29,073 nt of DNA from a virus. A model generated the notes under the pieces. That model saw only the letters and a list, made by a program, of their open reading frames with translations, ran no database searches and had not been told where the DNA came from. The position numbers and the translations under genes are program-made. Below are positions 3,452-28,834 of this stretch, in pieces. The DNA is taken from positions 1 through 29,073 of IMG/VR virus record IMGVR_UViG_3300031963_000696, one strand, 5' to 3'. The stretch's first letter is position 1; each line of letters begins with the position of its first letter.

Positions 3452-3459
3452 TATTTATA
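3452..3459 (-). promoter_or_regulatory. T4-type late promoter box TATAAATA
   Basis: An exact TATAAATA on the minus strand ends 10 nt before the ATG of the adhesin gene and overlaps the stop codon of the gene upstream. T4 late promoters consist of this octamer centred near -10, recognised by gp55, and a gp55-type sigma is encoded at 21312-21944. Confidence 0.6.
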
Positions 3460-4018: not shown

Positions 4019-4023
4019 AAAAA

Positions 4024-4031
4024 TATTTACC
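4024..4031 (-). promoter_or_regulatory. Late-promoter-like box GGTAAATA, 5 nt before ATG
   Basis: The minus strand reads GGTAAATA-TTTTT-ATG. The octamer matches the T4 late box at six of eight positions. The 5-nt spacing to the ATG is the same as at 15552-15559, 15589-15596 and 17026-17033. It overlaps the stop codon of the upstream gene. Confidence 0.4.
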
Positions 4032-6802: not shown

Positions 6803-6853
6803 GTTTATTATATAATATTTAGTCCTAAATAAATGTTATTTGACCAATACTGA

Positions 6854-8698
6854 TTATGTTTGCGGTGATTGAGTTTGTGTTTCTGTAGCTCCGGTTGGTT
6901 CCGGTGTGGTTTCTGGTGATTGTTCTGGTGTTTCTGGTGGTGTTTCTTCTGCTCCTCCTGCTGAACCACCGAATTCTGGAACCCCACCGCTTATTGAAGA
7001 TTCTTCGCTAGACCCTCCTCCTGTAAATCCTGAAGCTTCTTGTCCTGCTTGTTCTGCGGCTTTTTGATGTTCTCTCCAATTTGGTCCTAATTGAGCTATT
7101 TGATCTAATTCCCATTTTAAAGCAGCATCTTTTCTTAACCACTCCATGTTTTCACTTATTTTAGAATCTGTTAAGCCTAAATAATGTCTTTGTGCAAATG
7201 TTTTAGCTATAGAATCGCTTTGTGTTATATCAGAAAATATTTTATTTTTTAATTCAAATTCTTGATTTTTTCTTATCGTAAACCAGCTTGATGGTGGATT
7301 AAACTCTAAAGTAAAATATGATTCATTTAATTTTAATTCTTTCCAAAGATTTTTTAATTTTAAATGGGTTATAAATGCTTTTTTAAATCCTTCCGCAAAT
7401 TGTATTTGCAATCTGATTATAAATTTTGCAAATTTTAATTCTTCTCTTAAAATTTCAGCGCCATCTTTATATCCAGATTCTGGATTTATTCTGGTCAATG
7501 GAACTTTTAACGCTTTGTATAATTTGTTTACAAAGTACATTAAATCTTCTAGTTTTCCTAAATTTGCGCCACCTTGTAATAATTCAACATCAGATCCCGT
7601 CTCTCCTGCTCTTTTTGCAAACCAAAAAGAATCCAACATCGATTGCGGATCATATATGTTTCCTGCTCCTTGGGCTGAACCAGAATCGTATGTTTTCTTC
7701 GTCCAATACGATTGCATTAATTGTTTTAAATATGCTTCAGCTTTAGCTGGAGGCATATTTCCAACATCAATTTTAAATTTTAATCTTTCTGGTGCTCTAA
7801 CCATTCTATATATAACAATAGCGTCTTCTAAAAGAGACAATTGTTTATATGCTCTTCTTGCGTTTTCGATGAATGGTGTTCTTATTGTAAAATCTTCATT
7901 CCATGAATCGGAATGAATGTATGTTACTTGATTTCCTTCAAGTGTTATCAACTGTTGTTGTAAAACATTTGCTGGATTTGGAGTGTTGTTTATATTTTTA
8001 TTATCTCTATCCTCAAGATTTATCGGTTTTTGAAAAATAAAATTTTGAATTACTTCATTTTGAACATTATCATAAATTGGATTTATTAATTCTCCCGGAA
8101 TCAATAAAGATCCTATTACTCCCAAATCCTTTTTTTCTTCATGTACTATATTTTCAAAAAATAATTCTCCCTCCGTTAAGAGTTGACGACAATAACCCCA
8201 TCCTTTTGCGTCTAAATCATATATTTTAATAAATTTAGCAAATTCTTTTTCTAATTCAGATCTAGTTTCAGAATCTAATTTTCCTATACCTGTAAAAATT
8301 ATTTTTATAACCTTACCGTTTTCGTCTTTGGTTAAAAATTCATCACAAATTTCATCTAAACAATCTGAAATTTCAGCATAAGCTGCCATCCTCCTATATT
8401 CAGCAAGTCTTCTGGTCTTATCAGAATCTATTTTAGCATATATAAATCTATGATATGCTTTATCAGAAGCAAAAGAACCGGCTCCACCATCATCTTGATA
8501 AAACGGTCCGGTTATAACAGACTGTTTCATTATTTTTAGTTGTCTGTTTTTTGAAATTCTTTCGAATAATTCGTATTTTGGATTGTTTACTTCAAGTTCT
8601 GTTGATGTTTGAACGTAAGGTAATTTATCTAAAATAGAAGATACAAATGATCTTCCGTTATTTAATTGTTTTGTAGGTGTTGGAATTATCGAAGCCAT
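6854..8698 (-). CDS. 20: Portal vertex protein (T4 gp20-like)
   Basis: The portal forms the ring at the capsid vertex through which DNA is packaged and to which the tail attaches. The 614-residue product carries gp20 hallmarks. These are R-L-A-E-Y-R-R-M-A-A-Y-A-E-I with D-x-C-L-D-E-I-C-D-E (97-120), L-L-E-D-A-I-V-I-Y-R-M-V-R-A-P-E-R (289-305) followed by I-D-V-G-N-M-P (310-316), and L-L-Q-G-G-A-N-L-G with V-N-K-L-Y-K-A-L-K-V-P (373-400). Length is longer than T4 gp20 (524 residues), mainly because of a Gly/Ser/Glu/Pro/Thr-rich tail from about residue 555. The ATG at 8698 follows an AT-rich leader with a stem-loop. Identification is firm; the tail is unusual. Confidence 0.93.
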   Translation of the reverse strand: MASIIPTPTKQLNNGRSFVSSILDKLPYVQTSTELEVNNPKYELFERISKNRQLKIMKQSVITGPFYQDDGGAGSFASDKAYHRFIYAKIDSDKTRRLAEYRRMAAYAEISDCLDEICDEFLTKDENGKVIKIIFTGIGKLDSETRSELEKEFAKFIKIYDLDAKGWGYCRQLLTEGELFFENIVHEEKKDLGVIGSLLIPGELINPIYDNVQNEVIQNFIFQKPINLEDRDNKNINNTPNPANVLQQQLITLEGNQVTYIHSDSWNEDFTIRTPFIENARRAYKQLSLLEDAIVIYRMVRAPERLKFKIDVGNMPPAKAEAYLKQLMQSYWTKKTYDSGSAQGAGNIYDPQSMLDSFWFAKRAGETGSDVELLQGGANLGKLEDLMYFVNKLYKALKVPLTRINPESGYKDGAEILREELKFAKFIIRLQIQFAEGFKKAFITHLKLKNLWKELKLNESYFTLEFNPPSSWFTIRKNQEFELKNKIFSDITQSDSIAKTFAQRHYLGLTDSKISENMEWLRKDAALKWELDQIAQLGPNWREHQKAAEQAGQEASGFTGGGSSEESSISGGVPEFGGSAGGAEETPPETPEQSPETTPEPTGATETQTQSPQT

Positions 8699-10041: not shown

Positions 10042-10049
10042 TATTTATC
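10042..10049 (-). promoter_or_regulatory. Late-promoter-like box GATAAATA
   Basis: The minus strand carries GATAAATA (seven of eight matches to the T4 late box) ending 7 nt before the ATG of the gp15-like gene, in a short intergenic gap. Confidence 0.45.
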
Positions 10050-11884: not shown

Positions 11885-12560
11885 TACAATATAATTTTTT
11901 AAAAACTTTTGCTGATTTATTCCAATCATCACTCAACATACTATCTCCCATTCCGAAATGAGTGACTTTAATTGGATAAACCCCCATTTTAAGTTTATTT
12001 CTATTAGCATTCAAGCAAAATGATATATCATAATGATGAAAGTTAAAATTTTCATCGAATTTAGTATTGGTTTCTAATAATTTTTTAACATTTACCGCTA
12101 AAAATAACCCGTCTAAAATCAAAGCTCTAGATTCCGTTGGTCCAAATACAGTTGTCCACACTTTTTTATCTTTACTGTGAGATACTTCACCAACAAAGTC
12201 CTCTCTACTATTAGACATTAAGTGCCAAGCTGTCATATCAGCTTTTAAATTACAACTTTTAGATCCAGCTAAACCTACAATATCATAATTTTCAAAAGCT
12301 AGTGTTAATTTTTCAAAGAAAAATAAATCCTCTATTAAAACATCGTCATGAACGAAAATTAATTTATTATCTATATTTTGCTGGTTTATAAAAGAATTGT
12401 AAACTTTAGGTAATCCTTCTTTATTTTCATAAACAATATGAGAGTTTTTTAAAAAACTTTCTTTCTCTAAAAAAAGAGCTAATTGACTTTTTTCTAAAAA
12501 AGTTTCTTTATTATGCGGAGTTGCACATACAAATTTGTAATTATTTCTATCAATTGACAT
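11877..12560 (-). CDS. StrF-like glycosyltransferase (Glyco_tranf_2_5 type)
   Basis: This 227-residue GT-A-fold enzyme would transfer a sugar from a nucleotide-sugar donor. It shows the StrF-like signature: L-I-F-V-H-D-D-V (67-74, the DxD-like metal site), V-G-L-A-G-S-K (95-101), L-D-G-L-F-L-A-V (149-156), F-D-E then H-H-Y-D-I-S-F-C-L (175-183), and V-T-H-F-G-M-G-D (199-206). The acceptor is unknown; virion or host glycan is possible. It is oriented with the late genes and is divergent from the plus-strand gene starting at 12590. Its first 100 nt contain several A/T-rich palindromes. Confidence 0.75.
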   Translation of the reverse strand: MSIDRNNYKFVCATPHNKETFLEKSQLALFLEKESFLKNSHIVYENKEGLPKVYNSFINQQNIDNKLIFVHDDVLIEDLFFFEKLTLAFENYDIVGLAGSKSCNLKADMTAWHLMSNSREDFVGEVSHSKDKKVWTTVFGPTESRALILDGLFLAVNVKKLLETNTKFDENFNFHHYDISFCLNANRNKLKMGVYPIKVTHFGMGDSMLSDDWNKSAKVFKKLYCNG

Positions 12561-12567
12561 ATATCAA

Positions 12568-12575
12568 GATAAATA
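12568..12575 (+). promoter_or_regulatory. Possible late-promoter box GATAAATA before lone plus-strand gene
   Basis: GATAAATA on the plus strand ends 14 nt before the ATG at 12590, in the 29-bp divergent gap. It has one mismatch to the T4 late octamer. Confidence 0.35.
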
Positions 12576-12589
12576 TACTATAGATTTGT

Positions 12590-13183
12590 ATGAAAAGCAA
12601 TACCTTTAAAACAAGAAACATTTTAAATAAAAATTTAAAACATAACGATATTAACGAAGAAAGCGAAATTGCTTATGTATCAAGATTTTTAAATTCTCTT
12701 CTTAAAGAACAAGATGAATTACCAAAATCTGAAGAACCAGCATCAACAGAGGCCGACCCAATTGATAATTCTCAAAAAGATCCTTCTGAATTTACTCCCG
12801 AAGTTAATCAACAAGACTTTAAAAACTCTTTAGAAAAAGGAACCAATCCAAAAGATTTTGAAATTGAAGGAACTTCTCCTCACGCTACCGCTGAAACTAT
12901 TGCTTCTATAAGAGAATGGTCATCTAAACTAGATGATTTTGCTGAATTTTTAAATAATCCCGCTGAAACAACTAGCGAAGGAAAACCATCTTTACATAAA
13001 ATTCTTTCAGATGGCGATAGAAGCGGAAGTTTGTTAAGAGGCATAACAAGAAAAGCATCTGATAGTATAACTCGTATAGCTGGTGAAGTAGAAAAATTAA
13101 AAGAAATTCTAAACACCTACATCATTACAGCACCGAAGAAAATGAGAGATACTGAAGGTCAAGCTGGTTGGACCCAATTTTAA
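12590..13183 (+). CDS. Unknown acidic protein, lone plus-strand gene
   Basis: This 197-residue protein is not recognised. It starts with a basic stretch (K-T-R-N-I-L-N-K-N-L-K), then a long acidic, Pro/Ser/Glu-rich, probably disordered segment (about 45-95). A helical half follows (I-A-S-I-R-E-W-S-S-K-L-D-D-F-A, I-A-G-E-V-E-K-L-K-E-I-L). Scaffold-like or virion-internal proteins can look like this, but no claim is made. It is the only plus-strand gene between 1 and 15546. It is divergent from the StrF-like gene and convergent with the primase gene, with stop codons overlapping by 4 bp. Confidence 0.55.
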   Translation: MKSNTFKTRNILNKNLKHNDINEESEIAYVSRFLNSLLKEQDELPKSEEPASTEADPIDNSQKDPSEFTPEVNQQDFKNSLEKGTNPKDFEIEGTSPHATAETIASIREWSSKLDDFAEFLNNPAETTSEGKPSLHKILSDGDRSGSLLRGITRKASDSITRIAGEVEKLKEILNTYIITAPKKMRDTEGQAGWTQF

Positions 13184-14139: not shown

Positions 14140-14171
14140 GGCTTAAAAGATAAACGTTATGTATCAAAATA

Positions 14172-14843
14172 TCAAGTATATTTTTTTGGTACGTATAACC
14201 CTTGATCGGGAACAGAAATATCAGAAATTAAACTTTTATCTTCACCAAACGGTAAACCATCAGCTTGAATATAAAATTCAGTCATTTTTATTCTTTCCTC
14301 TGGATTTCCAAAAATTTCTATTAAAGCTGGGGAGTCATCTTTTGGAAAAACTCTTCCATCTCCTCTATTATAAGAGTCTTGAAAGGCTTTAAAAATAGTA
14401 TCTATTTCCTCTCTATATACAGGATCGATACTTCTTAACCCATCGTCTTTGATTTCAATATTAGAAAATTTAGTTAGTGGGAGAAAAAATAATACATCAT
14501 ACAACTTAAGAGTTTCTCTGACGATTATTCTCGTTTGATCGAGAAATTTATCAGATACTTTATCATATAGATGTAACCATGACGAATATGCTAAATTATC
14601 TAATACGGATCGGTCTAAAATAACAAATTCTTTTTTTGATTCTTCTATAGCTTGATCTACTAAAGCATCAAGAATTATTTTTTGTGATTCTTCCGTTCCG
14701 TTTTCGTTACAGGGAAGGTTTTTTTCTTTTATAATATCCCTATAAGTTTTTTGGGGAGTTTCGTACATGGTCCATTTCTTTAAAAAATCGGAAATGTACG
14801 TTGTTTTACCTGTGTTTTGAGAACCTACTACAGCTATTTTCAT
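14172..14843 (-). CDS. P-loop kinase-like ATPase (NadR/AAA_28-like)
   Basis: This 223-residue protein opens with a Walker A loop, V-G-S-Q-N-T-G-K-T-T (6-15), directly after the first strand. It has a Walker B-like V-I-L-D-R-S-V-L-D-N (74-83), as in small nucleotide or nucleoside kinases of the NadR/AAA_28 group. Helical segments and an R-I-I-V-R-E-T-L region follow. It could phosphorylate a nucleotide precursor or act as another small-molecule kinase; the substrate cannot be read from the sequence. The start overlaps the stop of the upstream gene by 4 bp (ATGA), so the two are translationally coupled. Confidence 0.65.
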   Translation of the reverse strand: MKIAVVGSQNTGKTTYISDFLKKWTMYETPQKTYRDIIKEKNLPCNENGTEESQKIILDALVDQAIEESKKEFVILDRSVLDNLAYSSWLHLYDKVSDKFLDQTRIIVRETLKLYDVLFFLPLTKFSNIEIKDDGLRSIDPVYREEIDTIFKAFQDSYNRGDGRVFPKDDSPALIEIFGNPEERIKMTEFYIQADGLPFGEDKSLISDISVPDQGLYVPKKYT

Positions 14844-15159: not shown

Positions 15160-15546
15160 TTATTCGAAATCGCTATTTGGTACGTTTTTAGGGTTTGTAT
15201 CTATTGTTTCTACTGGATTAAAAACTCCGTTTAACGTATCAATTATTTTTTTAATGTTTTCATCTGACTCGTCATCGGAAAGCATTTTTATTCTTTCTAC
15301 GTCAGTACTGTTTAATTCTTTATTTTGACCGTAAAAATTCTTTAATGATTTTAAAACTGATACTATTTGTTGATTTGATGCGACTGGTAATTCAGATTTT
15401 TCATCTGATAACGGAGTGGGTTGTTGTGCGTCAGGTGGCATATCTTGAGCTTGATCAGCACCCGCAACTGGAGCATCCTGAAGACCGTTTTGTTCGTTTA
15501 TGGTTTTTCTTATTTTTTCACAAATAGATATAAATTTGCTATTCAT
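15160..15546 (-). CDS. Unknown protein with Pro/Gln/Ala linker
   Basis: From the ATG at 15546 the product is 128 residues. A helical N-terminus (I-S-I-C-E-K-I-R-K-T-I-N-E) is followed by an Ala/Asp/Gln/Pro-rich linker (A-G-A-D-Q-A-Q-D-M-P-P-D-A-Q-Q-P), then a second helical part (I-V-S-V-L-K-S-L-K-N-F-Y) and a polar tail. I chose 15546 because a GGTAAATA box ends exactly 5 nt before it. A start at 15552 would add two residues, and longer frames run through the promoter region and into the divergent lipoprotein gene. Function is unknown. Confidence 0.55.
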   Translation of the reverse strand: MNSKFISICEKIRKTINEQNGLQDAPVAGADQAQDMPPDAQQPTPLSDEKSELPVASNQQIVSVLKSLKNFYGQNKELNSTDVERIKMLSDDESDENIKKIIDTLNGVFNPVETIDTNPKNVPNSDFE

Positions 15547-15551
15547 AAACA

Positions 15552-15559
15552 TATTTACC
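15552..15559 (-). promoter_or_regulatory. Late-promoter-like box GGTAAATA, 5 nt before ATG
   Basis: The minus strand reads GGTAAATA-TGTTT-ATG (ATG at 15546). The same octamer and the same spacing are seen before the gene at 3455-4018. It lies 29 bp from the divergent plus-strand TATAAATA box at 15589. Confidence 0.4.
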
Positions 15560-15588
15560 AAAAAAATATTAATTTTAAATGTATAAAT

Positions 15589-15596
15589 TATAAATA
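15589..15596 (+). promoter_or_regulatory. T4-type late promoter box TATAAATA, 5 nt before ATG
   Basis: The plus strand reads TATAAATA-TTAAT-ATG. An exact T4 late octamer lies directly before the first gene of the lysis-like cassette. With T4 geometry the transcript would begin at or within a base or two of the A of ATG. Confidence 0.6.
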
Positions 15597-15601
15597 TTAA
15601 T

Positions 15602-15886
15602 ATGATTAAATATTTTTTAGCCGTTATTTGTTTATTTTTAATATCCTGTAAAACAATAAAAAAGAAGGATGAACCAACACCTCCACAAATAAGCACTGGT
15701 ATATTAAAAGAATCTTTATTAAATACTAGAACCAATTTATCTAATGCTGGAGATTTAAATAACAAAATATCATATCAACTAGATAAAGCAATGAGTTTAG
15801 CAGAACAAATAGATTTTATTCTTTCTAAAATAGAAGAAGAACAATCAAAACCAAATTTTAAAACTGAAATCATAAAAAACCCATGA
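15602..15886 (+). CDS. Small lipoprotein, possible outer-membrane spanin
   Basis: The 94-residue product has a short basic start, a hydrophobic core and a lipobox L-I-S-C16-K, so it should be processed to a 79-residue lipoprotein. The mature part has a Pro-rich linker (E-P-T-P-P-Q) and then a helical, coiled-coil-like segment. Small lipoproteins next to holin and endolysin genes are often outer-membrane spanins that fuse the two membranes at lysis; that role here is inference from position. Its stop overlaps the start of the next gene (ATGA). A late box sits 5 nt before the ATG. Confidence 0.65.
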   Translation: MIKYFLAVICLFLISCKTIKKKDEPTPPQISTGILKESLLNTRTNLSNAGDLNNKISYQLDKAMSLAEQIDFILSKIEEEQSKPNFKTEIIKNP

Positions 15887-16365
15887 AAAAAATAATATTA
15901 CTTTGTTTATTGTTGACTGCTTCTTCTTTATACAGTCAAACCAATACATTATCAGAAGCTAGGAGATTACTCCAATTACAAAAAAAAGAACTTCTATCCG
16001 CAAAAGAAGAAAATAGAAAACTTGCTTCTGCTTTAAATGATTCTTTTGTTAAAATAACTCAAGGTGAAGTTCATTTAGCGGAAGTGCAAACTGCTGCTGA
16101 TACTATAAGACAATGGGGAATTGAACAACAAAGCGAATCAATGAATAATTTCAATCAAATGATGATTGAAAAAAAGGAAAAAGAAAAAACTATTAAAAAA
16201 TATCATTTTTCTAAGTTATTAAATTCTATAACAGCATCTATTCTAGGTTTAGTTCTAGGTTTAAACTTAATGAGATATGTTCCGCCGATTTATTCTTATT
16301 ACGCTCCATTTCTTCCATTACTAGGTGCAATACTTGGGTTTATTTTAATTTGGTTGATATTGTGA
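15883..16365 (+). CDS. Exported coiled-coil protein with C-terminal membrane hairpin
   Basis: This 160-residue protein starts with a signal peptide (M-K-K-I-I-L-L-C-L-L-L...S-L-Y-S, probable cut before Gln19), a form common in flavobacteria. Residues about 22-105 are a Glu/Lys/Gln/Leu-rich coiled coil. Two hydrophobic segments follow (about 113-133 and 143-160). The pairing with an upstream lipoprotein suggests an inner-membrane spanin partner or other envelope-disruption factor, but classical inner spanins have an N-terminal anchor, so the topology is unusual. Its end overlaps the end of the reverse-strand gene by 21 bp. Confidence 0.6.
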   Translation: MKKIILLCLLLTASSLYSQTNTLSEARRLLQLQKKELLSAKEENRKLASALNDSFVKITQGEVHLAEVQTAADTIRQWGIEQQSESMNNFNQMMIEKKEKEKTIKKYHFSKLLNSITASILGLVLGLNLMRYVPPIYSYYAPFLPLLGAILGFILIWLIL

Positions 16366-17019
16366 TGTTTTAAAACATATAAAGTGTCTATAAAATTTAA
16401 ATTTTAAAAATAAAAAACATAAATCTAAAAAAGATATTTTATATTTTAATAAAATCTTAAAAAAATCAAAAACTGATATGTTTTTATCATTTTTATCTGT
16501 TATATGAAAATGATAAACATAAACTACATATTTTTCGTTATCTTTTTTAGGTAAAAAATAAAAAATATTTTCTTTTTTATTATTAGTATAATATATCCAA
16601 TAAAATGTGGTTTTTTTATTTGTTATACACCATTTAGTATTTTTACCGTATTTTGCACATGCTTCATAAGTTTTAGGTGTTAAAACTGTTATTAAATCGT
16701 TTTCATATATTTTTGTGATTTGTTTAAATTTTTTTTGTTGTTCATATTTTTTATCAAGATTATATATAAAATCTTGAAATTCCTTTGAAGTTTTTTTTAA
16801 CCAAAAAGATATATCGTTTTGTGGACTTTTTATAATTTTTTTATTTACATAAAACAAAAATTTATTTAATTCGTATTTTGTTTCATTTTCAATATCTATT
16901 AGTAATTCAGCATTATTAATATATTTTATTTTGGATTGAAGCAACGTTTCGTATAGTTTATTGAACATAAAAGAACCAAATTTGGTTTTAAATGTTTTTT
17001 CTTCTAAATTAAACTGCAT
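16345..17019 (-). CDS. Unknown protein with YGKNTKWC motif, reversed inside lysis cassette
   Basis: The 224-residue product contains V-L-T-P-K-T-Y-E-A-C-A-K-Y-G-K-N-T-K-W-C (112-131). The YGxxTKWC block recurs, to my recollection, in proteins of many large phages, but I know of no established function. Ahead of it lies a Lys/Asn-rich helical region; after it come aromatic strands (F-Y-W-I-Y-Y, V-V-Y-V-Y-H-F-H) and a hydrophobic, Phe-rich C-terminus. It is encoded against the flanking lysis-like genes. It is divergent from the holin-like gene, sharing a palindromic late promoter, and convergent with the coiled-coil gene. Confidence 0.6.
   Translation of the reverse strand: MQFNLEEKTFKTKFGSFMFNKLYETLLQSKIKYINNAELLIDIENETKYELNKFLFYVNKKIIKSPQNDISFWLKKTSKEFQDFIYNLDKKYEQQKKFKQITKIYENDLITVLTPKTYEACAKYGKNTKWCITNKKTTFYWIYYTNNKKENIFYFLPKKDNEKYVVYVYHFHITDKNDKNISVFDFFKILLKYKISFLDLCFLFLKFKFYRHFICFKTSQYQPN
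16974..16987 (-). repeat. 14-bp perfect palindrome near start of the YGKNTKWC gene
   Basis: AACCAAATTTGGTT is its own reverse complement and lies about 33-46 nt inside the coding region. Confidence 0.6.
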
Positions 17020-17025
17020 AAATAA

Positions 17026-17039
17026 TATAAATATTTATA
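17026..17039. promoter_or_regulatory. Palindromic bidirectional late promoter TATAAATATTTATA
   Basis: This 14-bp sequence is a perfect palindrome and contains an exact TATAAATA on each strand (plus 17026-17033, minus 17032-17039). The plus copy ends 5 nt before the ATG of the holin-like gene at 17039. The minus copy ends 12 nt before the ATG of the divergent gene at 17019. It could therefore fire late transcription in both directions, although the two boxes overlap and would compete. Confidence 0.6.
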
Positions 17040-17461
17040 TGTTTGGTAAAATTTTACAAAATGTTAAAAATTTAACTTGGTTTTTACACTCTGGAGTTGC
17101 TCCAAAAAACGTTCCAGATAGATATAAACGAAATTTAGAAGATATAAATCACATGGCATCAAAGAAATTTGCTATGACTATGGTTGCTATATCTATAATT
17201 GCGTTTATGTATTTTACTTCGGTTGCTATTTTATTTCTTTTTAAAGGAGAGCCTCATGTATCAGCATTAGTTAATATGTACAAAGATATGATTATCTCTG
17301 TAGCATCTATAGCGGCTACTTTGGTCGGTATACAAGGATTGGTTGATTGGAAACACAATTCATCATCAAATGTTGAATTAAGCTCTGAGTATATTAAAGA
17401 AGAAATAGTAGAAACATTAACAAATAACACAAAAGAAGATGATTATGAAACCACCATCTGA
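17039..17461 (+). CDS. Holin-like membrane protein
   Basis: The 140-residue product has two hydrophobic segments (about 44-68 and 84-101), a charged linker between them and an acidic, polar tail. It lies directly before the endolysin gene, with overlapping ends, which is the usual place of a holin that opens the inner membrane. The ATG at 17039 is chosen over an in-frame ATG at 16961. The upstream part would be antisense to the divergent gene, and a TATAAATA box ends 5 nt before 17039. The holin role is inferred from topology and context. Confidence 0.6.
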   Translation: MFGKILQNVKNLTWFLHSGVAPKNVPDRYKRNLEDINHMASKKFAMTMVAISIIAFMYFTSVAILFLFKGEPHVSALVNMYKDMIISVASIAATLVGIQGLVDWKHNSSSNVELSSEYIKEEIVETLTNNTKEDDYETTI

Positions 17462-19916: not shown

Positions 19917-21331
19917 TAACGGTAAAACTATCTCAAAATAAAAAACAAGCACAATTATTATCAACAGATAATGATGATTTCTGTTTAATTAGAGAAAATT
20001 TTTCAATACCATTCAAATCTTTTTCAAAAAATAAAAAGTTTTTCCCTCAACGTAAGTATGCTATCACGCCATCTGGAAAATTTGATATAGGTTTAATATC
20101 AGAAATTAAAAATTTCATGGAACTTAATCAAATTCCATATGAAATAGACGAAGAAACAAAAAAATGTTTTGAAATAGGATTTAAAGATCCAATTATAAAA
20201 CAATATTCGTTATCCTATAGAGATCATCAACAGAAATCTATAAAAAACGCATTGGTAAAGGGTAGAGGAGTTGTTGTAATTCCTACTGCCGGTGGAAAAA
20301 CTCTCATAATGTGCTCAATTATAGAAAGTTTAAGACAAAATTTAAATGATCTTAACGCAAAATCACTTGTTATAGTACCTTCAATTCAATTAGTAGAGCA
20401 AACTGCTAAAGATTTTGAAGATTATGGCATGAAAAATATTACTAAATGGTCGGGAAACAACAAACCAGACCCAAACGCAACCACTATAATAGCTGGAATG
20501 CAAATATTATTATCAGATAAAACAGATTTGTCGTTTTTATCTGACGTTAAGATTTTTTTAAACGATGAATGTCATGGAACTAAAAAAGCAAACGAAATAA
20601 ACAACGTTTTTAACTTTTTAAATACAAACTATAGATTTGGATTTACAGGAACGATGCCACCATGTAAATTAGATTGTTGGAATATAATTGGCAAACTGGG
20701 ACCAATAGTATACGAAGAAAAAACAGATGATTTGAAACAAAAAAAATATATTTCAAATTTTAAAGTTTTTATTTTGAAAATAAATCACAACCCAGTTCCT
20801 AAATTTCCAATAGATATAAACAATCCTACTGATTCTTATAACAAAGAGTTGGAGTTTTTAATACATAACGATAAAAGAAACGAAACGATTTGCAATTTAG
20901 CTAATAAATTAAAAAATAATACTATTATAATGGTTGATAGAATAGATCATGGTATAAATTTAAGCTCTAAACTAGAGAAAACAACGACCAGACCATTTTA
21001 TTTTATACGCGGCTCTACTGATATTGAAGAAAGAGAAAAAATCAGGTCTTTAATGGAAGAAAGAAACGATATAATCGTTATAGCAGTATCAAAAATATTC
21101 AGCACCGGTATTAACATACCTAATTTACATAACATAATCTTTGCAACAGCAGGAAAAGCTAAAATAAAGATCATGCAATCCATAGGAAGAGCATTAAGGT
21201 TGCATCCAACTAAAACTATGGCGTATATTTTTGACATATCAGATAATACTAGATATGGAACAAAACATTTAGAAGAAAGAGAACAACTTTATTTAACAGA
21301 AAATTATAATTATGAGAAAAAAGAAATATAA
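19913..21331 (+). CDS. uvsW: UvsW recombination DNA helicase
   Basis: UvsW is a superfamily 2 helicase that unwinds R-loops and branched DNA and helps switch T4 from origin- to recombination-dependent replication. The 472-residue protein has a Q-containing segment before the core (R-D-H-Q-Q, 103-107), Walker A P-T-A-G-G-K-T-L (124-131), DECH at 218-221, F-T-G-T-M (244-248), and motif VI Q-S-I-G-R-A-L-R (422-429). Length is close to T4 UvsW (about 500). It overlaps uvsY by 4 bp and the sigma factor gene by 20 bp, forming one operon. Confidence 0.92.
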   Translation: MITVKLSQNKKQAQLLSTDNDDFCLIRENFSIPFKSFSKNKKFFPQRKYAITPSGKFDIGLISEIKNFMELNQIPYEIDEETKKCFEIGFKDPIIKQYSLSYRDHQQKSIKNALVKGRGVVVIPTAGGKTLIMCSIIESLRQNLNDLNAKSLVIVPSIQLVEQTAKDFEDYGMKNITKWSGNNKPDPNATTIIAGMQILLSDKTDLSFLSDVKIFLNDECHGTKKANEINNVFNFLNTNYRFGFTGTMPPCKLDCWNIIGKLGPIVYEEKTDDLKQKKYISNFKVFILKINHNPVPKFPIDINNPTDSYNKELEFLIHNDKRNETICNLANKLKNNTIIMVDRIDHGINLSSKLEKTTTRPFYFIRGSTDIEEREKIRSLMEERNDIIVIAVSKIFSTGINIPNLHNIIFATAGKAKIKIMQSIGRALRLHPTKTMAYIFDISDNTRYGTKHLEEREQLYLTENYNYEKKEI

Positions 21332-21944
21332 AAAAGAAGAAGACTTCGGATACGAAGATTTAATCGAAGAAACCATACAAGACGAACCATTTAACGATCT
21401 TGACGATGAAGAAGACCGCTTTTCATTCATTGAGAGAGAAATCGAACCGGAAGTTGTAGATGAAGATGACTTGGAAGAAGAAATTGAAGAAGTAGTAGAA
21501 ACCGAAGTAGAAAAAAAGCAAAAAAAGAAGTCTCAAAAACAAAAATTTTATGTAGATCCAAAAGAATTTGACAAAGAGATAATGGACTACTATGGTAGTG
21601 GGAATATATCAAATAATTTAGCTGATATGATAAGTAAAATTTCTCATAAATTAAGTTATGCTAGTAATTTTATAAATTACAGCTACAGAGAAGAAATGGT
21701 TGGTGATGGAATAGTAAGAATGATGAAAGCTCTTTTAGCAAAAAAGTATGATCGAGAAAAAGCAAGCAATCCATTCTCTTATTTTACAAAAATAGCGTTT
21801 AACGCATTTAGAAATAGAATAAAAAAAGAAAAACATATTCACGAAACCCATGAAAAGTATCAAGAACAATTAAATTTGCTATCTTCTAATTATAATTTGA
21901 TAACTAAAAATAAAAATACTAAAATAAACAAAATAGATAGATGA
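21312..21944 (+). CDS. 55: Late transcription sigma factor (gp55-like) with acidic extension
   Basis: gp55 directs host RNA polymerase to TATAAATA late promoters. The 210-residue product carries the conserved core: S-Y-A-S-N-F-I-N-Y (115-123), D-G-I-V-R-M-M-K-A-L (132-141), and N-P-F-S-Y-F-T-K-I-A-F-N-A-F-R-N-R-I (153-170), as in gp55. Unlike T4 gp55 (185 residues), it has a very acidic N-terminal stretch (about 9-66), mostly Glu and Asp, then a Lys-rich bridge. The start overlaps uvsW by 20 bp. Exact late boxes in the same window support the role. Confidence 0.85.
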   Translation: MRKKKYKKEEDFGYEDLIEETIQDEPFNDLDDEEDRFSFIEREIEPEVVDEDDLEEEIEEVVETEVEKKQKKKSQKQKFYVDPKEFDKEIMDYYGSGNISNNLADMISKISHKLSYASNFINYSYREEMVGDGIVRMMKALLAKKYDREKASNPFSYFTKIAFNAFRNRIKKEKHIHETHEKYQEQLNLLSSNYNLITKNKNTKINKIDR

Positions 21945-22993
21945 GTTTTACTCTAAAAAATAAAAAAATTGGAATTTTTTCCGATATTCATATCGGATTA
22001 GGCCAAGATAGTTCATTAAATCATAAAATTGTTTTAGATTTCGCAAAATGGGCGTCAGAAACCTTTTTAAATAAAGGAATATCAGATATTATAATACCCG
22101 GTGATATATTTCATAATAGAAATGAAATTTCTGTTGAAACATTATCAATAGCAAAAGAATTTTTTGATTATTTTAATGATTTTAGAATTTTTATATCTAC
22201 CGGAAATCACGATTGTTTTTTAAAAAATAAAAGCGATATAAATTCTATATCAATATTGAATGGATGGCCTAATATTAATATTATAGATAAAAAAACAGAG
22301 ATTTTAACCTATAAAGATAAAAAAATATCACTAGTTCCTTGGGGAGTAGATGCAAATGATATACCTTTATCGGATATAATGTTTGGACATTTTGAAATAA
22401 CAACTTTTAACATGAATTCATATAAAATATGCGATCATGGGATGAAATCGGAGTCATTATTATCAAAATCTCCACTGATTATATCTGGACACTTTCACAC
22501 TAAGCAGTCTAGAAACTATAAAAACGGTAAAATTGTATATGTAGGTAGTCCATATCAACAAAATTTTGGAGATTGTAACGAAGATAGAGGGATTTACGCT
22601 CTAGATTTAGAAAATGAAGAGTTTGAATTCATAGAAAACTTAATATCTCCAAAATATTATAAAATATCAGCATCAAAATACATTAAAGACGAAAATTACA
22701 TTAAAGATGTTGATATAGTAAGCAATAATAACATCATAAGTTTAGTAATAGATGATAAACTTTCACCAGAAGACATTTTATCCATCAAAGACAAAATAAA
22801 TAAAACAAATCCACAGTCTATAAGGGTTGATTATGAAAATAACGATAAAGATTTTGATAAAAACGAAACGGATAATGAATACGACTCTTCAAACATACTA
22901 AAATCTATAGAAGATTTCATACAAACTCTAGATATAGACAATAAAAAAGAAGTTGAAGATTACTTAAAAGAATTATATAATAAATTAACATGA
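21941..22993 (+). CDS. 47: Mre11/SbcD-type nuclease subunit (gp47-like)
   Basis: gp47 with gp46 forms the recombination nuclease that processes DNA ends. The 350-residue protein has the calcineurin-like phosphoesterase motifs: F-S-D15-I-H17 (metal), P-G-D55-I-F-H, G-N89-H90-D, G-H150 and S-G-H184-F-H186. Length matches T4 gp47 (339). It overlaps the sigma factor gene by 4 bp (ATGA). Its usual partner gene 46 is not next to it; instead a glycan-gene operon begins within its stop codon. A hairpin (21980-21997) lies at the first metal motif. Confidence 0.93.
   Translation: MSFTLKNKKIGIFSDIHIGLGQDSSLNHKIVLDFAKWASETFLNKGISDIIIPGDIFHNRNEISVETLSIAKEFFDYFNDFRIFISTGNHDCFLKNKSDINSISILNGWPNINIIDKKTEILTYKDKKISLVPWGVDANDIPLSDIMFGHFEITTFNMNSYKICDHGMKSESLLSKSPLIISGHFHTKQSRNYKNGKIVYVGSPYQQNFGDCNEDRGIYALDLENEEFEFIENLISPKYYKISASKYIKDENYIKDVDIVSNNNIISLVIDDKLSPEDILSIKDKINKTNPQSIRVDYENNDKDFDKNETDNEYDSSNILKSIEDFIQTLDIDNKKEVEDYLKELYNKLT
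21980..21997 (+). repeat. 8-bp perfect inverted repeat near gene 47 start
   Basis: TCCGATAT and ATATCGGA are exact reverse complements around TC, 39 nt inside gene 47. The sequence encodes the conserved S-D-I-H-I-G motif, so coding constraint may explain part of it. Confidence 0.5.
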
Positions 22994-23745
22994 ATAATAA
23001 TGAAATTGGAATAGGAATATTAGATTTATACGATCAAGACAGTCTTGATCGTTGTTTGGAATCTTTAAATGAGTATAAAGATTCAATATTTGTTGCATCT
23101 TTGACGAATAATAAGATAAAAACAGAAAATTATATAAGATATTCATCGCAAACTCCATTAGCAACACTCAGAAATTATATAATATCTCAATTTAGAATTA
23201 AAAATTTGAAATATTATTTTATAATTCATTCAAATAACATTATTAAAAATAAAAACTTCGCAAATGACACGATAAAACTCGGAGAAACATTCGGAAGTTG
23301 GGTTATTTTTGGAAATGAAAGCAAAAAGCTCTCATTAGAAGATGAAAGTGGACTAGAATTAAACATTTCTACTAAATTAAACTCTGAATTTTTATTTACG
23401 ATAAGCGGAATTATTAAAAATAACGGATATTTTGATGAAAGATTCTTTAATGGTAAAGAATTAGACATTATAGACTATTTAATAAACTTAAAAACAAAAA
23501 AAGTATATCCACCAAACGGTTATCACCCAACTATACCTCAAAATTGGTTTGAAAAAACAAATTCACCCATAAATGCTATAGGATATAAAGATCTTCCAGC
23601 AGAAGATAAATCTCTACAGCTATCTTATGGATATTTTTATCATAAAAACAAATATATACCAAACCAAAACGAGCCACAACCAGCATCTTCGGATGAATTA
23701 TTAAGTGTTATGGAAGAAATTCAAAAAAATTATGCAAAAAAGTAA
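22990..23745 (+). CDS. Degenerate GT-A glycosyltransferase-like protein
   Basis: This 251-residue product aligns by eye with the next two genes: an opening strand I-G-I-G-I-L-D-L-Y, C-L-E-S-L near 22, P-L-A-T-L-R-N-Y-I-I (56-65), and Y-Y-F-I-I-H-S-N-N-I-I-K (75-86). In its neighbours the last motif reads E-D-D-I/M-I-I-K. Here the acidic DxD metal-binding residues are replaced by S-N-N, so sugar transfer by the usual mechanism is doubtful. It may be a binding or regulatory partner of the neighbouring transferases. The start overlaps the gene 47 stop by 4 bp. A perfect 21-bp near-palindrome lies 41 nt inside it. Confidence 0.55.
   Translation: MNNNEIGIGILDLYDQDSLDRCLESLNEYKDSIFVASLTNNKIKTENYIRYSSQTPLATLRNYIISQFRIKNLKYYFIIHSNNIIKNKNFANDTIKLGETFGSWVIFGNESKKLSLEDESGLELNISTKLNSEFLFTISGIIKNNGYFDERFFNGKELDIIDYLINLKTKKVYPPNGYHPTIPQNWFEKTNSPINAIGYKDLPAEDKSLQLSYGYFYHKNKYIPNQNEPQPASSDELLSVMEEIQKNYAKK
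23031..23051 (+). repeat. Perfect inverted repeat, 10-bp arms, 1-nt centre
   Basis: CGATCAAGAC and GTCTTGATCG flank a single A. Arms are half G/C in an AT-rich genome, which makes chance less likely. It lies at codons 14-20 of the first gene of the glycan operon. As DNA it is an operator-like dyad; as RNA it would need a loop of several bases opened from the centre. Confidence 0.75.
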
Positions 23746-24523
23746 CGTAGGAGTAGCGATTATAACGTATAATCGACCTGATTTTTTCAAAAAATGTTTT
23801 AATTCTATCCCACAAGACAAAATTGATCATTTTTTAGTTGTAAATGACGGAGATAAATTACCATTTCATCTCGAAGATACGCAAATAATTCAACACGAAA
23901 CAAATAAAAACGTAGGAGAAAGTAAAAATGACGCAATGCGGTATCTTTTGGACAATAATTGTGATTATATTTTTACTTTAGAAGACGATATTATAATAAA
24001 AGATGATAATATTTTTGAAAAATACATTAATGCATCAAAAGAAACAGGAATTCAGCATTTTAATTTTGGATATTCCCAAAGAGAAAACCTAGATCACAAT
24101 TTAAAACCAGTTTGGCGTAAAATTATAGAATATAAGAACTCTAAAATAGTTTTAAACCAAAATATATTAGGTGCGTTTACATTTTATACTAGAAAAGCAC
24201 TACAAACGGTCGGATTACACCATAAAGACTTTAATAAAGGTCATGGAGATCACCTAGAATTGACATATAGAGCATACAAACACGGGTTAACTACGCCTTT
24301 CTGGTGGTTTGCTGATATATATGGTAGTTGGGATATGATTGAAAACCAAAGCGACTTTACTACAGACTCAAAAGTACGAAATCCAGAGACAATTCAAAAA
24401 TATTTCAATGAAGCTAGACAAATTTTTAAAAAATTACACGGTTTAGACATATTTGAAGTACCAAATTTAACTGAAACCGAAGTAATAAACTGTTTAAAAC
24501 AATTAAAAAATGAAATACATTAA
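23732..24523 (+). CDS. Family 2-like glycosyltransferase
   Basis: The 263-residue GT-A-type protein starts with V-G-V-A-I-I-T-Y-N-R-P (6-16), a classical family 2 opening. It continues with L-V-V-N-D-G (35-40), V-G-E-S-K-N-D-A-M-R (61-70), the DxD site F-T-L-E-D-D-I-I-I-K (81-90) and, near the end, T-T-P-F-W-W-F-A-D-I-Y. A G-H-G-D-H-L-E-L-T-Y-R segment probably provides the catalytic base. Donor and acceptor sugars are unknown. The ATG at 23732 is chosen (14-bp overlap); an in-frame ATG at 23705 would add nine residues. It is a paralog of the next gene. Confidence 0.78.
   Translation: MQKSNVGVAIITYNRPDFFKKCFNSIPQDKIDHFLVVNDGDKLPFHLEDTQIIQHETNKNVGESKNDAMRYLLDNNCDYIFTLEDDIIIKDDNIFEKYINASKETGIQHFNFGYSQRENLDHNLKPVWRKIIEYKNSKIVLNQNILGAFTFYTRKALQTVGLHHKDFNKGHGDHLELTYRAYKHGLTTPFWWFADIYGSWDMIENQSDFTTDSKVRNPETIQKYFNEARQIFKKLHGLDIFEVPNLTETEVINCLKQLKNEIH
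23757..23775 (+). repeat. 8-bp perfect hairpin near glycosyltransferase start
   Basis: CGATTATA and TATAATCG flank ACG, 25 nt after the start codon at 23732. Confidence 0.55.
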
Positions 24524-25319
24524 AAATAAAATTGGAGTTGGAATAACAACATATAATTCTGAAGAATATTTCAAAACTTTATATAAAAGTATCGACAATA
24601 CCAAAGTAAACGAATTAGTTGTTGTAAATGGGGGAGAAAAATACAATAATAATTATGATTGTGATTGGATTCAACATAATAAAAATTTTTATCCAGCACA
24701 ATCTAGAAATGATTGCATAACATATCTATTAAATAGAGATTGCGAACACATTTTCTTAATTGAAGATGATATGATTATTAAAAATTCAGATATTTTTAAA
24801 AAATATATTGAAGCATCAACTATATCCGGATTAAAATATTTTTCTTTTGTTAGTACAGGTCAAGGTTCAGGTTCAGCTTATAATAGAACACCAAAAACTG
24901 TTGTTGAATATAATAATAATATAAATTTATCTCTTTATCAAAATATGTGCAATGAATTTACATATCATCATTGTACAGTTTTTAATGAACTTGGTCTTTA
25001 TGATCCATCTCCAGAGCTTAGAAACGCCTTTGATATTGATATGGCTTATAGAGAAGCTAAAATAGGAAAATGGACAACTCCATTTTGGTGGTTTCCAGAC
25101 ATATCCAATTCAGATGATTATATAGAAAATAATCCAAACGCACAAAGTAGGTTACAATCTGATAGACCGGATGGATCTAGACAACAATTATTGTATAAAA
25201 CATTTGAATTTTTTAGAAAAAAACATAACATAGAAATACAAAATATACCAACAGCAGATAAAAATGAAGTTATTGATAAGTTAAGAAGAATAAAAAATGA
25301 AAATAGCAATAGGGATTAA
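24510..25319 (+). CDS. Family 2-like glycosyltransferase, paralog of preceding gene
   Basis: The 269-residue product matches the previous one along its length: I-G-V-G-I-T-T-Y-N (8-16), L-V-V-V-N-G-G (36-42), Y-P-A-Q-S-R-N-D-C-I (61-70), L-I-E-D-D-M-I-I-K (83-91) and T-T-P-F-W-W-F-P-D-I. The DxD site is intact, so it should be an active GT-A transferase. D-I-D-M-A-Y-R-E replaces the D-H-L-E-L-T-Y-R of its paralog. The pair arose by tandem duplication and presumably adds sequential or alternative sugars. Overlap with the upstream gene is 14 bp. Confidence 0.75.
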   Translation: MKYIKNKIGVGITTYNSEEYFKTLYKSIDNTKVNELVVVNGGEKYNNNYDCDWIQHNKNFYPAQSRNDCITYLLNRDCEHIFLIEDDMIIKNSDIFKKYIEASTISGLKYFSFVSTGQGSGSAYNRTPKTVVEYNNNINLSLYQNMCNEFTYHHCTVFNELGLYDPSPELRNAFDIDMAYREAKIGKWTTPFWWFPDISNSDDYIENNPNAQSRLQSDRPDGSRQQLLYKTFEFFRKKHNIEIQNIPTADKNEVIDKLRRIKNENSNRD

Positions 25320-26082
25320 TATTTTTAAATCTTATGATCGACAAACAAGATGTATAGACGTTTTAAAAAAATTAAAACGTCTATATTCAAATATAGAATT
25401 GTATAATATATCTTTTGACACTGAAAAGAATTTAGATAGTGATTTTATTCATCTTCCTTTATTAAAAAAAAGAGCAAAAGATATAATCAACGGATCAATA
25501 TCTGAAAAACCAATAGCAAAAGAGTTTTTTGATGTGCTATCTAATCAAGAATGTGATTATTTTTTATTTTTAAATAGTGATATTTTAATTTCCGAAAAAC
25601 TTTTAAAAGAAATTTTATCAAAAAAATTTGAAACTATGGTATTTTCTCGACATGATATATACCCACTAACAAGTTTAACAGATAAAATCATTCCTTTTCG
25701 GATAGAAATTGCTGGATTTGATTGTTGGTGTGTAAAAAAAGAATGGTGGGTTAAAAATAATAATATTTTTGAAGATTTTATATACGCAGAACCACTTTGG
25801 GATGTTGATTTTTCTTTAAAAATGTTTAATTATAGTGATTGTATATTACAAAATAAAGAATTCTTTATAGCTCATGAAAAACATGATTTAAATTGGAATG
25901 AAAATTCTTTAGAAGCCAAATATAATTCTTTATTGTGGGAAAAAACACCATACCACGAAAAGTGGCATGAATTTATATATTCAAATTTAATACATAGAAA
26001 ACCATATGGTCAGTTTTTGACTCCATTGGAAAATGAAAATGAGTTACAAAATAAATTTTTAAAAATTTCAAATGAAAATTGA
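25297..26082 (+). CDS. GT-A-like putative glycosyltransferase
   Basis: The 261-residue protein has an opening strand K-I-A-I-G-I-N-I-F, a DxD-like site C-D-Y-F-L-F-L-N-S-D-I-L-I (86-98), and a downstream E-P-L-W-D-V-D-F-S-L-K (165-175) resembling the catalytic-base region of GT-A enzymes. It also has C-W-C near 143-145. It is more divergent than the two preceding transferases, and no named family can be given. It overlaps the gene before it by 23 bp and the next by 11 bp. The strongest inverted repeat in the window lies within its first 90 nt. Confidence 0.6.
   Translation: MKIAIGINIFKSYDRQTRCIDVLKKLKRLYSNIELYNISFDTEKNLDSDFIHLPLLKKRAKDIINGSISEKPIAKEFFDVLSNQECDYFLFLNSDILISEKLLKEILSKKFETMVFSRHDIYPLTSLTDKIIPFRIEIAGFDCWCVKKEWWVKNNNIFEDFIYAEPLWDVDFSLKMFNYSDCILQNKEFFIAHEKHDLNWNENSLEAKYNSLLWEKTPYHEKWHEFIYSNLIHRKPYGQFLTPLENENELQNKFLKISNEN
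25353..25385 (+). repeat. Perfect inverted repeat, 14-bp arms, AAAAA loop
   Basis: TATAGACGTTTTAA and TTAAAACGTCTATA are exact reverse complements around five A. It begins 56 nt inside the coding region, in an operon with very short or no spacers. It encodes K-K-L-K and neighbours, so the A/T part follows from lysine codons, but the G-A-C-G arms do not. Confidence 0.8.
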
Positions 26083-26812
26083 TTTAAAGCACACTACGAT
26101 AGTATCTTTAAACACTAGAGATCCGGAAAACAGTATAAAAGCAATAGAAAGAAGTTCAAAATATATAAATTTTGGAAAATATATTCTTTTATCTGATAGA
26201 AAAATTGAACATCCTTTTATAGAAACAAAAATTATAAAAACATTTAATGATGTAAATGAATATAGTTTTTTTTGCATCAAAAAATTAGTTGATTACATAG
26301 AAACAGATTATTGTCTAGTCGTTCAAACCGATGGTTATGTCACTAATCCTTTCATGTGGACTGATGAGTTTTTAAAATATGATTATGTCGGATCTCCTTG
26401 GGATAAAAGAGTATCTCAATTAGTATTACATTTCACTAGAGTTGATATTAATTCTTTAAAATCTATACCAAATATTGTAGGAAATGGGGGTTTTTCTCTT
26501 AGAAGTAAAAAGTTTTTACAAGAATCTTCAAATCTTAATTACGATTATCCTCTTAATGAAGATATGTTTTTATGTGGAGTATCTAGAAGACAATTAGTAG
26601 ATAAAGGTATTAAATTCGCACCCATGAAAATAGCAAATAGATTCGGTATTGAGCTTCCACCACATCACGACGAAAAAGTTATAAATTTATGTTCATATTT
26701 TGGATTTCACGGAAGAGAGGAATTTAAAAAACCACTTTTGGATTTATTAGATAATTACGATGATGATATTGAATTTATTAATAATTTAAAAAAATTTAAA
26801 CTTTTATCTTAA
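26072..26812 (+). CDS. DUF5672-type glycosyltransferase-like protein
   Basis: The 246-residue product carries the DUF5672 signature: V-V-Q-T-D-G-Y-V (83-90), W-T-D-E-F-L-K-Y-D-Y-V-G-S-P-W (96-110), and G-N-G-G-F-S-L-R-S (137-145), followed by E-D-M-F-L-C near 168. DUF5672 proteins are regarded as GT-A-like sugar transferases found in glycan gene clusters. Here the neighbours support that. The start overlaps the gene before it by 11 bp. A two-part stem-loop lies at 26083-26112, 11 nt after the start codon. Donor and acceptor are unknown. Confidence 0.82.
   Translation: MKIDLKHTTIVSLNTRDPENSIKAIERSSKYINFGKYILLSDRKIEHPFIETKIIKTFNDVNEYSFFCIKKLVDYIETDYCLVVQTDGYVTNPFMWTDEFLKYDYVGSPWDKRVSQLVLHFTRVDINSLKSIPNIVGNGGFSLRSKKFLQESSNLNYDYPLNEDMFLCGVSRRQLVDKGIKFAPMKIANRFGIELPPHHDEKVINLCSYFGFHGREEFKKPLLDLLDNYDDDIEFINNLKKFKLLS
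26083..26112 (+). repeat. Two-part stem-loop near DUF5672 gene start
   Basis: TTTAAAG pairs with CTTTAAA; inside it ACTA pairs with TAGT around CGA, leaving a small internal loop (CAC/AT). Confidence 0.45.
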
Positions 26813-26814
26813 AA

Positions 26815-27501
26815 ATGAACAAAGATTTTTTAATTTTAACCTCTAACTTTGGTCAAAAAGATTTATTAAAAGATCCTTCCGAAGTATATGATAATTGCGA
26901 TTATATAGCTTTTACAGACAACCAAACCGATTTAAAAGTATGGAAACAACAACAAGGGTTTCACTTTTCCAATATAGATAATTATTCAGATCGAAGAGAT
27001 GCTAAAATCTACAAGATATTAAGTACTACCTTTTTCCCAAATTATAAATACATTGTTTGGATGGATGCTAACAAAGAATTAATAGTAAATCCAAAATTAA
27101 TAATTGATGAATACGGAGATGCGGATATATTAGGTTTCTTCCATCCAGAGAGAAATTGCATTTATCAAGAAATGGAAATAGTTAAACTTCTAAATTTAGA
27201 TGATAATCAACTGATTAATAACCAAAAACAATTTTACATTCAAGATAATTTTCCAAATAATATAGGATTATTAGAAATGTCTTTTTTTATTAGAAAAAAT
27301 ACAGATAAAATAAAACATTTAGAATTTTGTTGGTGGGAACAAATTTGCAAATTTAGTTCAAGAGATCAATGTAGCTTTATGTATTGTATTTGGAAATTAA
27401 GAAATAAAAATGTAATATACTCTTTTAAAAGATTGAAAGGGTTTGCAAATAATCACGGAGGAGGTAATTTATATTCAAAAGAAATTCCTCATTTAAAATA
27501 A
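26815..27501 (+). CDS. TOD1/MUCI70-like (DUF616) putative glycosyltransferase
   Basis: The 228-residue protein shows the DUF616 pattern: A-F-T-D-N (32-36), a basic R-R-D-A-K (60-64), Y-I-V-W-M-D-A-N (79-86, DxD-like), F-H-P-E-R-N-C (109-115), G-L-L-E (151-154), then W-W-E-Q-I and S-R-D-Q-C-S-F (182-188). Such proteins are regarded as glycosyltransferase-like and occur in bacterial glycan clusters. It starts two bases after the upstream stop with no visible ribosome-binding site, which suggests coupled translation. Substrates are unknown. Confidence 0.78.
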   Translation: MNKDFLILTSNFGQKDLLKDPSEVYDNCDYIAFTDNQTDLKVWKQQQGFHFSNIDNYSDRRDAKIYKILSTTFFPNYKYIVWMDANKELIVNPKLIIDEYGDADILGFFHPERNCIYQEMEIVKLLNLDDNQLINNQKQFYIQDNFPNNIGLLEMSFFIRKNTDKIKHLEFCWWEQICKFSSRDQCSFMYCIWKLRNKNVIYSFKRLKGFANNHGGGNLYSKEIPHLK

Positions 27502-27502
27502 T

Positions 27503-28834
27503 ATGTGTAGTATTTTATTTTCAACCAAACATAACAATGAAGATTTAGACGATTTAAATTATTATTTAAAATTTAGAGGTCCGGATTTTACTAATGTTAA
27601 AACTATTAATAATAATATTTTTATACATAATTTACTTTCTATCACTGGAGAATTTAAATCACAACCATATCAAGATGATGATATTCATTTGATTTATAAC
27701 GGAGAGATATACAATTATGATGAATTTGGAAACTATTCTTCTGATGGCGAATGTTTAATTCCTTTATATAAAGAGTATGGTGATAATTTTATTAAAAAAT
27801 TAGACGGGGAGTTTGCAATATGCTTAGTTGATTATAAAAAGAATTTGGTGGTTTTGAGTTCAGACATTTTTAAAACAAAACCATTATTTTATTCTTTAGA
27901 TGATGATGGTTTTGGTTGTTCTTCATATAAAACACCGTTAGAAAAATTAAATTATAAAAATATTAAAAAAGCAAAACCAAATACTACATATACTATATGT
28001 TTAAAAACGTTTAAAATTTTAAAAGAACAAAGTATATATAATTTTGATTTAAAACAACATAAACAATCATATGATGATTGGTGTCTTGCTTTTTCAAACT
28101 CTATTATAAAAAGAACTAAAAATACAGATAAAAAAATTTTTATAGGTCTTAGTAGTGGTTATGATAGTGGTTTAATATTTTCAGAATTATTAAAAAATAA
28201 TAATACATTTTATTCTTTTAGTTTATTAGGGTCTGAAAATGAAGATATTGTGTTGCGAAGATTGGAACTTAAAAATGAAAACTCTACGTGTTATAAATTA
28301 TATAAAGAAGATTCGATGTATAATTTTTCGCATATGACTATAAAAAATAGGACTGAACCTTTTTATTATACCATTCATTCTTCTTCTAGTGATTATAATG
28401 AATACAATACTTTGCTTATAGATGATGGAGGGTCTAATAACTTCGCCTCTATATGTAGAGCAGCAAAAAAATATGAATGTAAAATATGTCTATCTGGTTC
28501 CGGAGCAGATGAAATAATTTCTGATTATGGATTTAATGGTAAAAAATTATACCAACATAGTAATTTCGGTGGAAAATTTCCAGAAGATTTAAGTTCAATA
28601 TTCCCATGGGCGAGTTTTTATGGTTCTACTTTAGAGTCATATTTAGCAAAAGAAGAATATGTTGGAGGAGCTTTTGGTATAGAAATGAGATATCCTTTTT
28701 TAGATAAAAATGTGGTTCAAGAGTTTTTATGGTTGCATCAAGATTTAAAAAATAAAGAATATAAAGCACCTATAGATTATTATTTTAATAAAAATAATTT
28801 TCCGTATGCAAAACTAGAAAAGAGAGGATTTTAA
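27503..28834 (+). CDS. asnB: Asparagine synthetase, glutamine-hydrolysing (AsnB-like)
   Basis: AsnB-type enzymes hydrolyse glutamine and use the ammonia to amidate an acid, classically aspartate, with ATP. In this 443-residue protein the glutaminase has Cys2 as nucleophile, R25-G-P-D28 and Y-N66-G-E-I-Y-N. The synthetase half has a PP-loop S-S-G-Y-D-S (217-222), C-L-S-G-S-G-A-D-E (329-337) and E-M-R-Y-P-F-L-D (394-401), ending in K-R-G-F. The usual PP-loop reads SGGxDS and the later motif SGEGADE, so two positions are altered. E. coli AsnB is 554 residues; this protein is shorter. In a glycan cluster it may amidate a sugar acid rather than make asparagine (inference). Confidence 0.85.
   Translation: MCSILFSTKHNNEDLDDLNYYLKFRGPDFTNVKTINNNIFIHNLLSITGEFKSQPYQDDDIHLIYNGEIYNYDEFGNYSSDGECLIPLYKEYGDNFIKKLDGEFAICLVDYKKNLVVLSSDIFKTKPLFYSLDDDGFGCSSYKTPLEKLNYKNIKKAKPNTTYTICLKTFKILKEQSIYNFDLKQHKQSYDDWCLAFSNSIIKRTKNTDKKIFIGLSSGYDSGLIFSELLKNNNTFYSFSLLGSENEDIVLRRLELKNENSTCYKLYKEDSMYNFSHMTIKNRTEPFYYTIHSSSSDYNEYNTLLIDDGGSNNFASICRAAKKYECKICLSGSGADEIISDYGFNGKKLYQHSNFGGKFPEDLSSIFPWASFYGSTLESYLAKEEYVGGAFGIEMRYPFLDKNVVQEFLWLHQDLKNKEYKAPIDYYFNKNNFPYAKLEKRGF

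Follow-up and report, generated by a model that had tools for sequence, protein, structure and literature searches.

Late genes in a clade of T4-like phages are very probably transcribed from gp55-type promoters that start RNA at, or 1–3 nt before, the A of the ATG, which would give leaderless or near-leaderless late mRNAs, and the early and middle genes appear to be arranged likewise. We came to this clade through one window, a complete IMG/VR virus record 29,073 bases long (27.7% G+C, 72% A+T). Judged by its phrog matches, which include a portal, a UvsW-like helicase, a gp47-like nuclease, a primase, a tail sheath stabilizer and a gp55-like sigma factor, the window represents part of a T4-like phage genome. 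Downstream of the gp47-like gene lies a row of genes with short overlaps (22990–28834) whose translations look glycosyltransferase-like and include a glutamine-dependent asparagine-synthase-like protein. We propose that RNA polymerase, at late boxes serving as gp55-type promoters, would begin on the start codon or just upstream of it, and that sigma70-type promoters of early and middle genes would be placed alike, one nucleotide further out, as the geometry requires. Most promoter-proximal genes would then be translated from a 5′-terminal AUG with no Shine-Dalgarno leader, and operon-internal genes would use internal starts that likewise have no Shine-Dalgarno sequence.

A preliminary description of this DNA had pointed to four genes with a T4-type octamer exactly 5 nt before the ATG. 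Searching both strands for NRTAAATA-N5-ATG gave exactly four matches, each at an ATG that opens an ORF of 94–187 aa (Table 1); among 38 usable called starts, four boxes at this distance compare with 0.117 expected, and none of 2000 shuffles reached four. The four genes are thereby borne out. The distance proved not to be fixed: octamers in the window also lie 7, 10, 12, 13 and 14 nt upstream of further gene starts, and 5 nt is a minimum only. One pair of divergent genes is separated by a 14-bp pseudo-palindrome, TATAAATATTTATA (17026–17039), which holds one late box per strand, 5 nt from the plus-strand ATG and 12 nt from the minus-strand ATG (region 17013–17041), and which may possibly act as a single two-way late promoter. 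In relatives, gp17 and gp25 are preceded by similar arrangements. At 12545–12590, an early-type promoter with a late box inside it suggests that the gene at 12590 is expressed in both phases.

Table 1. Candidate promoter elements and reference genes in the window.
Feature	Position	Strand	Distance to ATG	Gene or remark
Late box TATAAATA	15589–15596 (core match 15590–15604)	+	5 nt to 15602	ORF 15602–15886, 94 aa, lipoprotein-like
Late box GGTAAATA	15552–15559 (core match 15544–15558)	−	5 nt to 15546	ORF 15160–15546, 128 aa
Late box TATAAATA	17026–17033 (core match 17027–17041)	+	5 nt to 17039	ORF 17039–17461, 140 aa
Late box GGTAAATA	4024–4031 (core match 4016–4030)	−	5 nt to 4018	ORF 3455–4018, 187 aa
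Late box TATAAATA, second half of pseudo-palindrome	17032–17039	−	12 nt to 17019	ORF 16345–17019
Late box GATAAATA	10042–10049	−	7 nt to 10034	gp15-like tail sheath stabilizer
Late box TATAAATA	3452–3459	−	10 nt to 3440	Long ORF leaving window at left end
Variant late box CTAAATA	6816–6822	−	13 nt to 6802	
Late box GATAAATA	12568–12575	+	14 nt to 12590	Within spacer of TTGACA...TATAGA early-type promoter
Early-type promoter TTGA-N19-TATCTT	14147–14175	−	7 nt to 14139	Primase; kept in diverged relatives
T4-type portal protein (gp20)	6854–8698	−		phrog_213 E=6e-94; query for finding relatives
gp55-like late sigma factor gene	21312–21944	+		phrog_234 E=3.7e-26; PDB 7d7c gp55 E=1.3e-8

Portal and gp55 searches yielded 160 loci of uncultured relatives, to which six large relatives of 160–226 kb were added. 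Because an iterated position weight matrix collapsed to its seed word, all 7-mers lying 5–9 nt upstream of starts were enumerated instead. The top words of this unbiased ranking (TAAATAT, TAAGTAT, ATAAATA, ATAAGTA and GTAAATA) define the clade's box as VTAARTA, a broader motif than the T4 octamer. In 2.45 Mb of non-redundant relatives' sequence we then counted how far VTAARTA lies from ATGs that open ORFs of at least 100 aa. With the background at about 7 cases per position, there is no excess at 0–4 nt (1, 7, 4, 10 and 11), and the counts at 5–10 nt are 103, 126, 87, 57, 57 and 46. The 5-nt spacing of the window is thus very strongly enriched elsewhere in the clade, as the sharp lower limit of a 5–12 nt distribution in which 5–8 nt is usual and a tail follows. 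Permuted words gave no such cliff in the relatives' sequence; the valid controls are these and VTAARTB, since the reversed word ATRAATV matches ATAAATA itself and is not an independent control. Diverged orthologues largely retain the spacing. Orthologues of the gene at 15602, with 35–100% identity, keep a distance of 5 nt in 7 of 8 sequences while the spacer letters differ (TTAAT, TTTAT, ATAGT, TGAAA, GTTTT, GATGC); those of the gene at 15546 have distances of 5, 10, 6, 7, 5, 7, 5 and 5 nt, and those of the gene at 17039 mostly 5–8 nt.

Genes lacking a late box have an upstream element of their own. TATAAT is the top word 3–10 nt before their ATGs, with an onset at 6 nt. The two-part motif TTGA-N18-TAnnnT precedes 70 starts at this distance and TTGA-N19-TAnnnT 45, against about 3 per position at 0–5 nt; spacers of 14–17 and 20–22 gave no rise at 6 nt. 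The sigma70 hexamer ends at −7, so a distance of 6 nt also places +1 on the A of the ATG. Early onset at 6 nt and late onset at 5 nt is the difference that the two geometries predict, and it provides an unplanned internal check on the analysis. Seven genomes supplied 681 promoter-type starts, of which 214 are preceded by a late box at 5–12 nt and 130 by an early promoter at 6–13 nt; 337, about half, have either class, the early class being assigned by a loose motif. On the same count T4 has 1 and 2 of 129. Leaderlessness had been suggested as a property of late messages. That part is supported for the late genes, but the property would not be confined to them: what is new here is that genes without the box have sigma70-type promoters, and the early messages, like the late ones, appear to have no leader or almost none.

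The position of +1 relative to the late box can be estimated from T4. In the cryo-EM structure of T4 gp55, the pocketed adenines are those at −12, −9 and −8 (PMC7892883). By our own derivation, the only register that fits both these adenines and the P23 sequence (GAGTATAAATACTCCTGATAC) would place TATAAATA at −13 to −6. The five spacer bases then end at −1 and the A of the ATG is +1; a spacing of 5 nt is the minimum because a nearer box would lose the start codon. At sites with a distance of 5 nt and no opposing box, the base before the ATG is a pyrimidine in 89% of cases, compared with 56% of operon-internal starts (p=3e-10), as expected of a pyrimidine-purine initiator. Sites at 6–8 nt have no such bias, and leaders of 1–3 nt are therefore likely there. 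Late genes with longer distances, such as those for the tail sheath (gp18, 12 nt) and gp25 (10 nt), would have leaders of 5–7 nt. The earlier suggestion that transcription starts on or next to the A of the ATG thus gains support from the 5-nt onset, the −1 pyrimidine and the match to the T4 gp55 structure. It is also conceivable, if unlikely, that the boxes are late promoters whose RNA starts lie several nucleotides further upstream than T4's, leaving leaders of about 5–10 nt: the gp55 homologue has diverged, and many boxes lie at 10–12 nt. Yet the 5-nt cliff and the pyrimidine-purine bias at T/ATG would not be expected unless +1 could coincide with the A, and the early promoters independently display the matching 6-nt cliff. 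The exact late register could differ from that of T4, given the changes in gp55 and the unrecognised gp45 and gp33.

The genes that carry the box point to its function. It is all but absent from operon-internal starts (6 of 418). In families matched to T4 genes, late structural starts have a box within 20 nt in 26 of 78 cases, and replication or early starts in 0 of 83 (p=5e-10), in keeping with the earlier reading of these octamers as T4-type late boxes. The wider loci have the box at gp13 (22/22), gp25 (13/14) and gp20 (37/46), and at none of 28 genes for gp43 (DNA polymerase), gp41 (helicase), uvsX and gp46. By this distribution the box is very probably a promoter, and it marks late structural genes and not replication genes. 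The major capsid gene, gp23, usually lacks a late box in relatives; in five loci and others its leader is conserved and contains TCTATCCATA, after which many relatives have an AGGAG-like sequence, in a clade otherwise almost free of Shine-Dalgarno motifs.

The gp55 homologue retains Y97 and T99, which in T4 hold the adenines at −12 and −8, and L54, E70 and D74 are also conserved; R57 is replaced by A and E77 by I or V. No C-terminal clamp-binding motif is evident in the gp55 homologues of the window and its relatives. Searches for gp45 and gp33 with Pfam PF02916 and PF09116 gave no match, in a search run with no positive control, and single-sequence hhalign was weak. Late transcription in the clade might be clamp-independent or might use diverged partners.

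That the A/T-rich box is instead a translation-initiation element, providing a ribosome binding context free of Shine-Dalgarno pairing, seems to us improbable. Starts in the clade do lack Shine-Dalgarno sequences and are A-rich upstream, and ribosomes of Bacteroidota and similar bacteria prefer an upstream A (PMC7366714). Such an element should not be missing from operon-internal starts and from all replication genes, nor does this reading sit with a word that matches the T4 gp55 octamer, or with early genes that rely on another element, a two-part one of sigma70 type, at a fixed distance of their own. It is more improbable still that the box-adjacent ATG is part of the promoter and that the true start codon lies downstream. 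Some phage promoters do take in bases of the first codon, but here the cliff appears only at ATGs that open long ORFs, other ATGs having no rise, so the ATG is not merely part of a DNA motif; the N-termini of orthologues also align at the box-adjacent ATG. Chance in an A+T-rich genome, for which whole-window dinucleotide shuffles averaging 0.98 matches and reaching at least four in 2 of 100 might speak, has a negligible probability and was rejected, with 0.12 boxes expected at starts, more than 300 cases at 5–7 nt in relatives and permuted words without a cliff.

A Bacteroidota host, offered in the preliminary description, is unproven. It would fit the scarcity of strong Shine-Dalgarno motifs, found at 4% of starts in the clade versus 27% in T4, and one relative's contig, with 62% portal identity, was binned in a Chitinophagaceae MAG. 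Early promoters are informative on the host because its polymerase must read them. They are sigma70-like and not of the Bacteroidota type, in which TAnnTTTG is joined by a TTTG near −33; TAnnTTTG was not enriched (39 matches versus 32 in shuffles) and had no sigma70-like distance peak; exact TTGACA-N17-TATAAT was not enriched in Chitinophagaceae genomes. In B. thetaiotaomicron only about 3.7% of 5′ UTRs are shorter than 10 nt (PMC7366714). The ribosomal protein bS21, with a shared KRAFETP motif, is encoded by 4 of 10 large relatives; a search of the Chitinophagaceae MAG revealed none. No distance peak appeared in 100 kb of RM378, a T4-like Rhodothermus phage whose host belongs to a related phylum. 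Nor is the 5-nt layout tied to Bacteroidota, since the Pelagibacter phage HTVC008M has nine late starts at exactly this distance.

On balance we favour the broader view that the whole clade relies for its entire programme, with host sigma70-type promoters early and gp55 promoters late, on mRNAs that are leaderless or nearly leaderless and are translated through recognition of a 5′-terminal AUG, perhaps with the aid of bS21, although transcript 5′ ends and leaderless translation are here deduced from DNA. In phages, leaderless mRNAs generally count as exceptions, and the clade would show a large phage dispensing with most promoter-proximal leaders. The distance cliff offers a ruler for transcription starts that needs sequence only, and the 5- and 6-nt offsets of the two promoter classes agree with independent structural registers. 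There is also a warning in these results, in that the absence of Shine-Dalgarno sequences can mislead both start-site prediction and host assignment.

The nearest known system is late transcription in T4, directed by gp55, gp33 and gp45. Both have an octamer of the TATAAATA type, an AT-rich downstream segment, a sigma factor of the gp55 family and late structural genes as targets. They differ in placement. T4 octamers lie mostly 21–34 nt before the ATG and leave a leader with a Shine-Dalgarno sequence, whereas those of the clade usually lie 5–8 nt away; no NRTAAATA box occurs 5–12 nt before called starts in T4, and the peak near 28 nt leaves room for its Shine-Dalgarno sequence. The clade also often uses the variants TAAGTA, GTAAATA and CTAAATA, and differs from T4 in having no recognised gp45 or gp33 and no evident clamp-binding motif at the gp55 C-terminus.

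Leaderless mRNAs are known from lambda cI and from Actinobacteria and Deinococcus, in which a −10 element, TANNNT, adjoins the ATG. As in those cases, the promoters of the clade adjoin the start codon and would yield a 5′-terminal AUG; the known examples are isolated phage genes or host genomes, and here early and late programmes of a lytic T4-like clade would be involved. The components are of known kinds. Their adoption on such a scale by a lytic T4-like clade, or any leaderless late mRNA in T4-like phages, was not found in a literature search that had most subscription journals outside its scope. Freshwater phages that encode bS21 resemble the relatives described here in habitat and in that gene, and neither promoters nor leaderless messages come up in the searched text of the paper describing them (PMC9723584).

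The closest parallel in culture is HTVC008M (Kyanoviridae), in which nine genes, some of them for tail and baseplate, have VTAARTA-N5-ATG exactly. Unlike the clade, it has a second class of late promoters at 18–28 nt, some with an SD-like aggaga, its gp55 retains a T4-like C-terminus, and its host is the SAR11 alphaproteobacterium Pelagibacter. Since this cultured phage has the late feature, the arrangement is directly testable.
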